Source: an uncultured Pseudomonadota bacterium (GTDB lineage Bacteria > Pseudomonadota > Alphaproteobacteria > Rs-D84). Taken from it: a stretch of 34,275 nt of DNA. The notes under the pieces were generated by a model. It did no database searches. It saw nothing but the letters and a program-made list of their open reading frames with translations, and was not told the DNA's origin. Location: the NCBI GenBank assembly GCA_902793005.1, contig CADBBQ010000009.1, forward strand, positions 1-34,275, read 5' to 3'. Below, piece by piece: positions 17,545 to 28,193 of the stretch. The position numbers were made by a program, and so were the translations under genes. How positions within the stretch are numbered: position 1 is the first letter of the stretch; each line of letters starts with the position of its first letter.

Positions 17545-19520
<1,976 letters not shown>

Positions 19521-19523
19521 ATT

Positions 19524-19558
19524 CCCCGCCCCAAAGGGGAGGACCGCGTAGCGGTGGG
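19524..19558. repeat. Short palindromic repeat, ATTCCGCCCC family
   Basis: Starts 4 bases after the ligA stop as ATTCCCCGCCCCAAAGGGGAGG, then ACCGCGTAGCGGTGGGCAG. It has the same beginning and the same ACCGCG-AGCGGTGG end as the longer copy at 19570-19620. It may also serve as the ligA terminator, although no T-run follows. Confidence 0.6.
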
Positions 19559-19569
19559 CAGTTGTGATT

Positions 19570-19620
19570 CCGCCCCAAGCGATAGCGTGGGGAGGGGGAC
19601 CGCGAAGCGGTGGAGGGGGT
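19570..19620. repeat. Palindromic repeat, ATTCCGCCCC family
   Basis: CCGCCCCAAGC-GATA-GCGTGGGGAGG forms one hairpin, and ACCGCGAAGCGGT a second, ending GGAGGGGGT. The opening and end match the copies in queA (27297) and after HU (34085). The middle part is shorter here. Confidence 0.7.
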
Positions 19621-19630
19621 AAAAATATTC

Positions 19631-19660
19631 TTGCAATAAATAAATTTCATTTTCTATAAT
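19631..19660 (+). promoter_or_regulatory. Promoter of the 350-nt structured RNA
   Basis: TTGCAA (19631-19636), 18-base spacer, TATAAT (19655-19660). The -10 is perfect. It points into a non-coding stretch that ends in a terminator 330 bases later. Confidence 0.65.
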
Positions 19661-19666
19661 ACCCTT

Positions 19667-20013
19667 GTGAATCCGAAAACAAGGGAGTTGGATTCCGGTG
19701 GCTTTAGCAGGCCAAATCGTTCCGGTGCAAGGTTTACATCGTGACGCTCCCAATCTGAAACGATTCGTTTTTTGAATCTGGTGATTGTGTTTGTCACATT
19801 TTGATTTTGCACCGACATTTATTCATCGTCGGTAAATTTTTTACCCTCCGATTTATAAGTGTGAATTTTATCCCATATATGATAACGCCCCGATGCCCGT
19901 ATTTGGTCTGGCGGGGGTGCCGCGGTGTCGGACAGAAACGCCCGCGGAATCATTGAACGATTGATTTGCTAACACCCCGGCCATATTCCCGTTGGATTCC
20001 CAGCGGTTTTTTT
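19667..20013 (+). ncRNA. Structured RNA of about 345 nt, unknown class (stand-alone or leader of the 474-aa gene)
   Basis: This fills the 535-base gap without a recognised gene. Helices visible by eye: GAATCC/GGATTC (19669/19690); a long nested stem of CGGTGCAA/TTGCACCG (19723/19807), GTGAC/GTCAC (19741/19793), CAATC/GATTG (19751/19783) and GATTC/GAATC (19762/19774); GGTAA/TTACC near 19840; GGCGGGGGTG/CACCCCGGCC (19910/19973), enclosing AATCA/TGATT (19948/19962); then the terminator stem. It lacks the RNase P GAGGAAAGUCC core, the SRP loop and a tmRNA tag sequence. It ends 42 bases before the 474-aa gene, so it could be a long attenuating leader. A 25-codon GTG frame (19698-19775) with AAGGGAG upstream lies inside it. 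Confidence 0.6.
19989..20013 (+). terminator. Terminator of the structured RNA
   Basis: CCGTTGG (19989-19995), ATTC loop, CCAGCGG (20000-20006), then TTTTTTT. Confidence 0.85.
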
Positions 20014-20055: not shown

Positions 20056-21480
20056 ATGAGAAAAACGACAAAATTGTTGGGTGCCATATTTGGCATACTG
20101 TGGGCTGTGCCCGTATGGGGCGCGTGTTATGATTATACATCTGCGACGGGAACAGTCGTGCAAGACGGAACCCCAACACCAGACAATCCAATTGAACCGG
20201 TATTCTATCAACAGGGTAATATGATTCTGCGTGCGGTTGGTGATGTTGCAGATAGTTACGATGCAACAACGGGAAAGATCACCCGCAGAATAAAAGAAAC
20301 AAAGCTAACACCAGATGGTGGTTTTGGTTTTCGTATTGTTGGCGATGGAGTGTGTACAGTTATGTTGCCAGTAAAAGCACGCACCACAATTATGTCAACT
20401 CACTTTGCTAACGACACACCGGGAGCGCCATCTTTGACAGCAACAAATCATATATCAACTCATTCTAGCCAAGATAATAATGTATATTTTAGAATAGACG
20501 GAGGTTTTGCTACTACTACGGATTGTATGAATTGGGCGCAAGAACAAATTAATGCAGGCACCCCGGTTATGATTTATTCAATTATGCCAACAGAAACAGA
20601 AGAAACAATTGGAACACAGTGGTGCGATAAAATCAAAATCGCAACGATGAAGTATAACGAGAGTGCTTTCAGTCCGTTGAATACTGCGTTGGCGAATGCG
20701 ATTAGTGTTGTGGATACGGTGGTGTCGAACACGATAACTCAGGCCGGCCGCATTGCAACTTTGCAGGCACAAAAACAAACCCGTCCGAACGACATTGCGG
20801 ATGATAGCGAAAAATGCCCCGCCGGCAAAAAGTGCCTGCTGGTCGAGGACGCCAGTGGCACCCCGCATTGGTACGAGATTGTGGAAAACGCCTGGGACTT
20901 GCCCGTGGGATACACTCAGTTGCAGTATATCGAAAGTACAGGAACACAGTACATTGATACGGGTTTTTCACCTGATGCAAATACCAGGGTTGATTATAAA
21001 GGTCAACTTTTACAATTTGCATCATCTGTGCCATTGTTAGGAGCTAGACTCGGCTCAGATAACCCTGGACGTTTTTTTCCACTCGCTTGGTATACAAATG
21101 CCAATGCTGGTCGTATTGTTTATGGAGACAAAGACGTGATGTTTAATATATCGACATCTACAATATATACAGGGACGTTTATTCCTGCCCAGGAAAAAAC
21201 AATTATAAATGGCATAACATATGATATATCTGGTGCTAATTTTACAAAAACAGCAGACAATAACTTTTATTTATTTGCTACCAGTGGTTATGTAGGGAAT
21301 TTGTATAATTCTGTTGGCAGAATATGGTATGTAAAAATCTGGGACAATGATACTTTGGTTCGCGATATGGTTCCTGCGAAAAATTCAAGTGGCGTTGTTG
21401 GTATGTACGATACTGTAAACAATCGGTTTTACACGAACGCTGGCACTGGGGAATTTGTCGCGGGGCCGGTGGCGGAGTGA
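20056..21480 (+). CDS. Secreted modular protein with phage-like domains, 474 aa
   Basis: A Sec signal peptide covers about 1-22 (RKTT, hydrophobic LLGAIFGILWAVPV, cut near WG-AC). The next part has the phrase GTVVQDGTPTPDNPIEP, familiar from structural proteins of gut phages, and a beta-rich domain to about 190. A helical linker (PLNTALANAISVVDTVV) and a Cys-containing segment (SEKCPAGKKCLLVED) follow. The C-terminal 180 residues begin GYTQLQYIESTGTQYIDTGF, a laminin-G/concanavalin-like domain opening very common in gut phage and Firmicutes surface proteins. So it is probably an exported adhesin or glycan-binding protein built from phage modules. GGGAG lies 9 bases before the ATG. Preceded by the structured RNA; the composition is close to its neighbours. 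Confidence 0.75.
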   Translation: MRKTTKLLGAIFGILWAVPVWGACYDYTSATGTVVQDGTPTPDNPIEPVFYQQGNMILRAVGDVADSYDATTGKITRRIKETKLTPDGGFGFRIVGDGVCTVMLPVKARTTIMSTHFANDTPGAPSLTATNHISTHSSQDNNVYFRIDGGFATTTDCMNWAQEQINAGTPVMIYSIMPTETEETIGTQWCDKIKIATMKYNESAFSPLNTALANAISVVDTVVSNTITQAGRIATLQAQKQTRPNDIADDSEKCPAGKKCLLVEDASGTPHWYEIVENAWDLPVGYTQLQYIESTGTQYIDTGFSPDANTRVDYKGQLLQFASSVPLLGARLGSDNPGRFFPLAWYTNANAGRIVYGDKDVMFNISTSTIYTGTFIPAQEKTIINGITYDISGANFTKTADNNFYLFATSGYVGNLYNSVGRIWYVKIWDNDTLVRDMVPAKNSSGVVGMYDTVNNRFYTNAGTGEFVAGPVAE

Positions 21481-25590: not shown

Positions 25591-26484
25591 ATGACAAATA
25601 CATATTCTGGATTTATTGCAATTTTGGGACCGACAAACGCCGGAAAAAGCACCCTGATAAATCAAATTATGGGGCGCAAGGTTTCAATCGTATCGCACAA
25701 GGTTCAAACCACACGCACAAATTTGCGCGCGGTGAAAATGGTTGGGGACCGTCAATTGATTTTTGTTGATACGCCGGGCGTATTCAAAGCAAAACGCCGC
25801 CTGGACCGGGCAATGGTTGGTGCCGCGATGGATGCGTTTGGCGACGCGGATGCGGTGTTGTTGCTGGTTGATGCGACGCACGGTGTGACCGACACAATCC
25901 GTGGTTTGATTGAAAAAATCAAGAACCATAAAAATCTGTTTGTTGCACTGAACAAGGTTGATGCGATATCGAAATCTAAATTATTGCCAATGGTTGCAGA
26001 ATTGTCATCTTTGGCTAATTTCAATGAAATATTTATGATTTCTGCATTGAAAAATGATGGAATAAACGAAATGTTAAACGCATTGGCGGCGGTGATGCCG
26101 GCGTCCCCTTATTTGTTTGATGCTTCTGACGCGGTGGATGTGCCGGACAACCTGTATTTGGCGGAATTGACCCGTGAAAAGATTTATAAATATATTCACC
26201 AAGAATTACCGTATCACATCAATGTCGTGACCGAGAAAGTTGATGTGGACGCGGACGGTGTTTTGGATATTTATCAAAAAATAGTTGTGGCATCCGAGGC
26301 ACATAAAAAAATAGTAATTGGTCGTGGTGGCGAACAATTAAAGAAAATCGGCACCGCCGCCCGTCACGATATCCAGGACCAATGGGGCGTAAACGCGCGC
26401 CTGCATTTATTTGTGCGTACGGAAGAAAATTGGGAAGAAATGGCCGAAAACTACACCGACCAGGGTCTGGAGTTTAAAAAATAA
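25591..26484 (+). CDS. era: GTPase Era
   Basis: Ribosome-assembly GTPase that binds the 16S rRNA 3-prime end. G motifs: GPTNAGKST (G1), TTRT (G2), DTPG (G3), NKVD (G4) and SALK (G5). The C-terminal KH domain shows VASEAHKKIVIGRGGEQLKKIG. 297 aa. Two starts are possible, ATG 25579 and ATG 25591. I prefer the second because alphaproteobacterial Era proteins begin with about four residues before SGFIA. Neither start has a good Shine-Dalgarno sequence, and a weak TATGGT lies 6 bases before 25591, so it may be leaderless. The stop overlaps the queA start as TAATG, so queA is coupled. Confidence 0.95.
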   Translation: MTNTYSGFIAILGPTNAGKSTLINQIMGRKVSIVSHKVQTTRTNLRAVKMVGDRQLIFVDTPGVFKAKRRLDRAMVGAAMDAFGDADAVLLLVDATHGVTDTIRGLIEKIKNHKNLFVALNKVDAISKSKLLPMVAELSSLANFNEIFMISALKNDGINEMLNALAAVMPASPYLFDASDAVDVPDNLYLAELTREKIYKYIHQELPYHINVVTEKVDVDADGVLDIYQKIVVASEAHKKIVIGRGGEQLKKIGTAARHDIQDQWGVNARLHLFVRTEENWEEMAENYTDQGLEFKK

Positions 26485-28193
26485 TGCTGCATACATCCGA
26501 TTTTGATTTTGAATTGCCCGCCGAATTGATTGCGTCACATCCTCTTGAACGCCGCGATGCTTCACGTATGTTGGTTGTTTTGCCACATGGCACTGCAAAT
26601 ATTCAACCCCGCCCTTGCGGCGGGGTCGCAGAGCATGCACAATCGTGCAATGCGATGCGGGGGCGGGTTAATAACGAAATTCATCATCAATATCGAAATG
26701 GAAATATTAAAGAGTTAGCGTCAAATATGCGAAAAAATATGACTGACGCAGAAAAAAAATTATGGTATTGTATAAATAATAAACAATTGGGTGTTCAGTT
26801 TCGTCGTCAGTATGTTATTGATAATAAATATATTGCTGATTTCGTGTGTTTAGAAAAAAAACTGATAATAGAGGTTGATGGCAGTCAACACATTGAAAAC
26901 AAGAAAGACGAAACGAGAACGCAATATCTGAATCAATCTGGATTTAATGTAATACGATTTTGGAATTGGGATATTTTAGAAAATGTTGCCGGGTGTTTGG
27001 ATATAATAATTGATGTGTTGAATAATGACTCTTTTGAAAAACGACTTGCAAAATTCAAAGAACAATTTGTACCCGCCCCCGGCTCGACAAATGTTGCACA
27101 TTGTCTTGCCGACCCCGCCGCAAGGGCGGGGTTGGACCCCACACATGAAGTCAAATTTTATCCTGCCAACGGAGGGGAACTTGTCCTGCACGACAAACAT
27201 ATTCGTGATTTTTTGGATTATCTGCGTCCGGGTGATGTTGTTGTGTTTAATAATTCGCGCGTGATTCCGGCACGTTTTAATGCGTATAATAAAATTCCGC
27301 CCCAAGCGCAGCGTGGGGAGGGGGGACTATGGGCCTGTCCCACGAAGCCTTGGCGAAGTGGGGTGGCGGGGGTTGAAATTACTCTGCATACATCGGTCAA
27401 CGACCACGATTGGTGGGGGCTGTGTAAAAAGTTTAATAAAATAAACATTGGCGATATATTGACAATGGACGACGGCACAAAAATTCGTGTGCTGGATAAA
27501 GACGATGAAAGCGGTCTGTTGTTGCACTTTGATTGTGACAATGTTTTTGATGTTTTGAATAATGTTGGCAAAATGCCACTGCCACCATATATGAAACGCG
27601 ATGAAGAAATTGCCGACCGCGAACGTTATCAAACGGTGTATGCCGAACCACTGGGATCAATGGCGGCACCAACGGCGGGATTGCATTTTACCCCAGAATT
27701 GATGAGTGAGATTGAGGCGCGCGGTGCGAAAATTGTAAAAATCACTTTGCACGTTGGCGCGGGAACATGGATGCCGGTTAAAACAGAAAACCTTTCCGAA
27801 CATAAAATGCACAGTGAATGGTGCTGTATCACACCCGAACAAGCCGATATAATCAACAACGCAAAACGCGTAATTGCCGTCGGCACAACATCAATGCGAA
27901 CATTGGAAAGTGCGGCAATACGTGCACGTGAATCCGGTGCGGATACGCGTGTTGTTCCAATTTGTGATAATACAAATATTTTTATCACGCCGGGATATAA
28001 ATTTGGTGCGGTGGATGTTTTACTGACCAATTTTCATCTGCCAAAATCAACATTGTTTATGTTGGTGTCGGCATTCGCGGGGCTTGACGAAATGAAATCC
28101 GCATATGCCCACGCGGTTGCGGAAAAGTATAGATTTTTCAGTTATGGCGATTGTTGTTTGTTGTTCAAAAAGGACGCACATGATAAAAGATAA
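26484..28193 (+). CDS. queA: QueA, tRNA preQ1 34 S-adenosylmethionine ribosyltransferase-isomerase, with two in-frame insertions
   Basis: Makes epoxyqueuosine in tRNA wobble position 34 by transferring the ribosyl part of SAM to preQ1; acts after Tgt. QueA signatures are intact at the ends: SDFDFELPAELIASHP, GDVVVFNNSRVIPAR, GKMPLPPYMKR, QTVYAEPLGSMAAPTAGLHFT, THLHVGAGT-like ITLHVGAGTW, VGTTSMRTLESA, TNFHLPKSTLFMLVSAFAG, EKYRFFSYGD. At 569 aa it is about 210 residues longer than the family. The surplus lies in two blocks, residues about 41-217 (a DUF559 cassette) and about 270-296 (a palindromic repeat), both open in the queA frame and both in loops between conserved QueA segments. It could be functional with insertions, or a recent pseudogene that happens to stay open. 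Confidence 0.93.
   Translation: MLHTSDFDFELPAELIASHPLERRDASRMLVVLPHGTANIQPRPCGGVAEHAQSCNAMRGRVNNEIHHQYRNGNIKELASNMRKNMTDAEKKLWYCINNKQLGVQFRRQYVIDNKYIADFVCLEKKLIIEVDGSQHIENKKDETRTQYLNQSGFNVIRFWNWDILENVAGCLDIIIDVLNNDSFEKRLAKFKEQFVPAPGSTNVAHCLADPAARAGLDPTHEVKFYPANGGELVLHDKHIRDFLDYLRPGDVVVFNNSRVIPARFNAYNKIPPQAQRGEGGLWACPTKPWRSGVAGVEITLHTSVNDHDWWGLCKKFNKINIGDILTMDDGTKIRVLDKDDESGLLLHFDCDNVFDVLNNVGKMPLPPYMKRDEEIADRERYQTVYAEPLGSMAAPTAGLHFTPELMSEIEARGAKIVKITLHVGAGTWMPVKTENLSEHKMHSEWCCITPEQADIINNAKRVIAVGTTSMRTLESAAIRARESGADTRVVPICDNTNIFITPGYKFGAVDVLLTNFHLPKSTLFMLVSAFAGLDEMKSAYAHAVAEKYRFFSYGDCCLLFKKDAHDKR
26604..26669 (+). repeat. Left terminal inverted repeat of the DUF559 cassette
   Basis: It begins CAACCCCGCC. 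The outer 25 bases are identical to the reverse complement of the right end. Inside, CCCCGCC/GGCGGGG, then CGCA, GCATGCAC / GTGCAATGC, TGCG, form two stacked hairpins. The last bases GGGGGCGGGTT can pair back with the first AACCCCGCCC. Confidence 0.8.
27071..27134 (-). repeat. Right terminal inverted repeat of the DUF559 cassette
   Basis: Reverse complement of the left repeat at its outer 25 bases and its inner end (ACCCGCCCCC). The inner hairpin differs in sequence but not in form: GGC, GACAAATG / CATTGTC, GCC. Structure kept with changed bases suggests the fold matters. Confidence 0.8.
27297..27373 (+). repeat. Palindromic repeat, ATTCCGCCCC family, in frame inside queA
   Basis: CCGCCCCAAGCGCAGCGTGG and the end GTGGCGGGGGT match the copy after HU at 34085-34164 almost base for base, including the shared middle GGCCTGTCCCACGAAGCC followed by TTGGCGAAGTGGG. 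It encodes about 26 residues (PPQAQRGEGG, LWACPTKPW) between FNAYN and VEITLH of QueA, where other QueA proteins have only a short turn. Confidence 0.85.

Follow-up and report, generated by a model that had tools for sequence, protein, structure and literature searches.

A terminator-bearing leader RNA of the sRNA-Xcc1 superfamily in gut Alphaproteobacteria

The window, a 34,275-nucleotide stretch of DNA from an uncultured alphaproteobacterium, raises the question of what kind of RNA is made immediately ahead of a gene for a secreted protein, and whether this RNA governs the gene. The original prediction for the region, made from the sequence, was an RNA of unknown class that is structured and has a promoter and a terminator of its own, and in which a 5' element could pair with the terminator and so switch between termination and read-through.

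The locus in the window

As had been predicted, the locus (19661–20013) combines a promoter, of the sigma-70 kind, with a transcript that folds strongly and a terminator. The promoter, read from the sequence as TTGCAA and TATAAT with an 18-nt spacing (19631–19660, + strand), keeps the position of its -10 box across the copies of the element described below. The structured RNA is ~345 nt long in the window, with a folding energy of -125 kcal/mol as against -97.6 ± 4.7 kcal/mol for shuffled sequences (z = -5.8), and the + strand of the region has no long coding frame, in agreement with the earlier view that no protein-coding frame of note lies here. The transcript ends in an intrinsic terminator, CCGTTGGATTCCCAGCGG-T7 (19989–20013, +), with its stem at 19989–20006 and its T7 tract ending at 20013. 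The secreted-protein gene (20056–21480, +), which encodes 474 aa with the signal peptide MRKTTKLLGAIFGILWAVPVWG, begins 43 nt past this terminator; in the window no promoter was seen between the terminator and its start codon, and the protein has no Pfam match. An Rfam search with the window copy returned nothing relevant, even at E 10. RNase P, SRP and tmRNA were set aside, as the prediction had done, given that none of them matched the window RNA in Rfam and that RNase P lies elsewhere in the genome (G000:C7).

Recurrent GC-rich palindromic intergenic repeats (for example GGACCGCG..GCGGTGG and GAAGGGG blocks) adjoin the RNA at 19520–19625, and are likewise seen upstream of many other copies. 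The preceding ligA (17581–19520, +) is split into two overlapping frames, 17581–18912 and 18771–19520, by a frameshift that is either genuine or assembly-derived. Further along, the queA frame (26484–28193, +) appears by eye to contain an in-frame insertion of ~180 aa that looks like a DUF559/Vsr-like endonuclease domain.

The pseudoknotted fold

The fold was sampled in 105 copies from >70 genomes; their compact core measures ~190 nt, and the window's subtype has a long insert in addition. The window RNA (all features on the + strand) opens with the P1 hairpin (19669–19695), formed by GAATCC (19669–19674) and GGATTC (19690–19695), whose loop contains GGGAGTT (19683–19689), complementary to the terminator loop. 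It is followed by the P2 hairpin (19700–19713), by X (AATCGTTC, 19715–19722), a copy-specific linker strand, and by P3 (19723–19741; CGGTGC.../...ACATCG), for which the sequence also offers an alternative, as its strand GGTGCAA could pair with TTGCACC at 19807–19813. The 3' domain includes the P6 hairpin (19920–19947), the P7 hairpin (19948–19966; AATCA...TGATT), whose loop contains X' (GAACGATT, 19955–19962), the partner of X, and the downstream strand of P5 (CACCCCGGCC, 19973–19982).

The complementarity between X, which lies between P2 and P3, and X' in the P7 loop was found unguided in 95 of the 105 copies, and at a constant position. Among 22 trimmed sequences the 7-bp helix is Watson-Crick in 154/154 cells, with zero G-U pairs; 7/7 of its pairs are altered on both sides, its covariation score is reached by 0/500 shuffles, and sliding the strands reduces pairing to 34–40%, these controls leaving some relatedness among the copies in place. 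Over a larger sample, of 163 copies, 39 of the 1334 pairs are G-U. The P2 loop (TTAGC in the window, 19704–19708) similarly pairs and covaries with J, the strand preceding P5 (GCTAA, 19968–19972), with CG, AU, GC and UA all being used at one pair. As P5 crosses X/X', the core is pseudoknotted. Comparison with relatives, which had been proposed alongside the prediction, thus yielded compensatory changes and conserved pairing that back the structure besides its folding energy, and we regard the fold as near certain. Most copies carry a conserved internal loop in P6 (UAUR..CA/AAAG), whereas in the window's subtype P6 is the least conserved part.

The sequence of X is distinct in nearly every copy within a genome (20/21, 18/19, 10/10 and 7/7). 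Identical X pairs between genomes number 56, as against 7.6 by chance, a recurrence that may be explained by common descent. We considered X as a limited code and rejected it: identity within genomes is no rarer than between genomes, so that the data do not demonstrate a fixed code, nor diversity that is forced.

Distribution and relation to sRNA-Xcc1

At the DNA level, a search across 40 related genomes recovered 8 matches in the window's genome, 14 in a second species and short versions in a third; the window's genome has about ten copies of the RNA. Using 18 copies, we made a covariance model, R1, for the 3' domain; it matched 130/156 genomes of the genus and 155/201 of the order, spanning 16 of its 23 genera. 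The order consists of uncultured Alphaproteobacteria from gut and rumen, with UBA3635 among its named records, and the highest copy numbers, 37, 35 and 51, occur in three ~1 Mb genomes. A second model (R2), for which 34 diverse copies served as input, matched 35 of the 385 genomes of the class plus two genomes outside it, and the window copy was scored by both models. The leader RNA is real and widespread, and the full RNA was not described in the literature that we searched.

All copies examined are co-directional, each standing before a gene. In the compact copies the ORF begins 33–60 nt past the 3' domain, a spacing that leaves little space for another promoter; where the gene is 150–450 nt away, another promoter is possible. 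The products encoded downstream mostly have signal peptides, and most copies precede secreted-protein, glycosylation or restriction-modification genes. Other downstream products are EcoRI-type methylase, HsdM, C5 methylase, GmrSD, polysaccharide pyruvyl transferase, FkbM methyltransferase, glycosyltransferase-like proteins and type IV pilin. Some gut bacteria have dozens of copies ahead of surface and defence genes, which would amount to an RNA-based control layer, with up to ~50 copies per ~1 Mb genome, ahead of genes facing phages and hosts.

The known family that these RNAs resemble is sRNA-Xcc1 (RF02221), whose curated gathering score is 53 bits. The window copy does not match it at E<=10, and the best copy in the same genome attains 39 bits. 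Nine gut copies, including one in the window's genome and L007, a relative that was aligned with the window copy, match RF02221 over its full length (positions 1–87) with E 1e-4 to 0.09, and four of the distant copies found with R2 match it full length with E 0.006–0.06, in each case below the cut-off. Since all the matches are below the curated cut-off, the window copy is a superfamily relative and not a member of RF02221. The covariance-model search against known families, fruitless for the window copy itself, was informative through its relatives, and the earlier "class unknown" gives way to a new terminator-type variant within the sRNA-Xcc1 superfamily.

sRNA-Xcc1 was found in Xanthomonas as a stable 88-nt RNA (PMC2996969), and it has been reported upstream of symE in Xanthomonas integron cassettes, with no mechanism given (PMC12444791). 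It shares with the window RNA the 3' domain (P5, P6 and P7 with X' in its loop) and a location just upstream of a gene. Unlike it, the window copy has ~345 nt, a long insert and an intrinsic terminator and lacks an X copy at the ribosome-binding site (RBS), and its type is multi-copy and found before secreted-protein genes. We read 20 RF02221 loci above the cut-off, and most of them carry the 5' half, which the Rfam model leaves out; as in the window, P2 and X lie upstream and the P2 loop pairs with J. In these loci X is complementary to its own X' (6.50 vs 5.27, 0/5000, with a few loops misparsed by the script), and X' is complementary as well to another X copy, located at the Shine-Dalgarno site (own 6.53 vs 4.98 permuted, 0/5000). 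The orphan 88-nt sRNA-Xcc1 is thereby recast as one half of a knotted leader RNA that is widespread, and it has a large group of relatives that is mostly unrecognised.

Genes next to the RF02221 loci include those for SymE, Bro-N, P22_AR_N and KilA-N proteins. In a Rac-type phage (Rac-SA53) the RNA before ant has X TACAAG, X' CTTGTA and TACAAGAGG ahead of the start codon, and the X'/RBS-copy arrangement was also read directly in Vibrio phage VPBES. That X' is complementary to the RBS of whichever gene follows, be it symE or a phage antirepressor gene, suggests a mode of action for sRNA-Xcc1. In the C4 antisense RNA of phages P1 and P7, an upstream segment of the same transcript is complementary to the ribosome-binding region of the antirepressor gene. 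The phage members of the superfamily, complementary to the antirepressor RBS region in the same transcript, could be seen as analogous; the C4 fold (RF01695) differs from that of the leader RNA, and RF01695 gave no match in the Rfam searches of the window and its relatives. IsrK of the Salmonella Gifsy-1 prophage is reported to have a short RNA isoform and a longer mRNA isoform from one locus (PMC4825925), which to that extent resembles the leader RNA; the IsrK family is unrelated, its sole match, near one relative, being sub-threshold and at chance level.

A relative was detected in 169 of 5426 E. coli genomes. A single E. coli chromosome has up to 13 similar places, and prophages may bear several copies. 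The sRNA-Xcc1 loci L253–L272, L273 and L274 have a conserved hairpin and U-run (GCGGTATTTTTGTGCC) between X and the 3' domain, resembling an internal terminator.

Termination and its possible control

The RNA contains a G-rich strand, GGUCGGGG(U/A)G, that has two mutually exclusive partners, one upstream (P4) and one downstream (P5). In the window this G-strand, GGGGTG (19914–19919, +), is common to P4, with the upstream strand CGCCCC (19886–19891, +), and to P5. The base after GGGG is paired in P5 in 119/119 copies (U-A 70, A-U 38, G-U 10, G-C 1); P4 could form in all 119, and the variable base there is paired in 64% vs 43% by permutation. A terminator follows 107/120 copies, as against 2/120 in shuffled sequence, and -10 boxes cluster 50–54 nt upstream of X across copies, which puts the transcript start at P1.

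As originally noticed, GGATTCC occurs twice in the window, at 19690–19696 and inside the terminator at 19993–19999, and GAATCC (19669–19674) is pairable with each. Across 90 copies the P1 hairpin matches its own terminator better than those of others (0/5000 permutations), and 0/3000 swaps within a genome were as good. The level of the 5' strand of P1 alone was reached in 22/3000; across the family at large it is usually the P1 loop, rather than the GAATCC strand alone, that partners the terminator. The proposed switch between a 5' element and the terminator therefore stands in kind, with a different usual partner. The last bases of P5 double as the first of the terminator stem in many compact copies, and in the window the two do not overlap (19982 vs 19989); with an overlap of few bases or none, their competition may be indirect. 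We consider the exchange between P4 and P5, which was not part of the original prediction, a better candidate for the switching element than the pairing of the 5' element with the terminator.

Taken together, we think it probable that the window RNA, as a distant relative of sRNA-Xcc1, is a cis-acting leader of the secreted-protein gene that chooses between termination and read-through, and cis-control of termination is likely for the leader RNA in general. Transcription would begin at P1, and P4 could form first in the nascent RNA, sequestering the G-strand. Formation of the pseudoknotted core (X/X', P2 loop/GCTAA and P5) would then move the G-strand out of P4 and onto the strand that directly precedes the terminator, and the core together with the P1-terminator pairing would decide whether the polymerase stops at 20013, releasing the ~345-nt RNA, or reads through into the gene. 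We infer that this exchange controls termination, in one direction or the other, and that a trigger may exist in the form of a ligand, a protein or the speed of transcription. The mechanism is testable, phage antirepressors and SymE included.

Alternatively, the terminated ~345-nt transcript could itself be the product, a small RNA acting in trans on other mRNAs via exposed loops, in which case the following gene would simply be a neighbor. The stable 88-nt form of sRNA-Xcc1, which the title of Chen 2011 calls trans-acting, would fit such a role, as would the conserved terminator, the presentation of X' in a hairpin loop fit for pairing and the presence of the P1 antisense (CCGAATCCAACTCCC) in the mRNA leader of long-spacer copies. 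Nevertheless, we find it doubtful, given that the copies examined lie co-directionally ahead of a gene, in many cases no more than 60 nt away and without any visible promoter in between, and given that X' in 93 gut copies has no specific match to the downstream leader or RBS (345/3000). It is improbable that the RNA is a metabolite riboswitch of a new class with the P6 internal loop as its putative binding site: the loop is kept in most copies, and the leader position, mutually exclusive helices and terminator recall riboswitches with intrinsic terminators, but, unlike in these, one helix is copy-specific and no metabolite is common to the downstream genes (envelope, restriction-modification, phage, toxin), and P6 is poorly kept in the very subtype of the window. 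Occlusion of the RBS, with X' pairing with X or with a second X copy at the next gene's Shine-Dalgarno site, fits the RF02221 and phage loci above but is very unlikely for the window, whose leader lacks the X copy; the gut copies have a terminator in place of the RBS match. Least of all would we expect a processive antitermination element that depends on a specialised, RfaH/LoaP-like NusG: although the polysaccharide and surface genes are similar targets, each of 21 genomes has exactly one NusG and no second.

Beyond the cis-acting leader favored for the window, we tentatively raise the possibility that the superfamily is a mobile control cassette of self-addressed switches, in which each copy-specific loop X' fits the X strand of its own leader as well as, in the phage and integron members, the RBS of its own gene. 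In gut Alphaproteobacteria these might have multiplied to 10–50 individually coded switches that set the state of surface and defence genes.

In copies located 150–450 nt from the gene (L006, L009–L020), the mRNA leader carries, past the terminator, a second hairpin element that exposes the same antisense of P1 and often also GCTAAGGCC, the antisense of the P2 loop. This hairpin shows partial covariation (L025: AGCGGG / CCCGCT).
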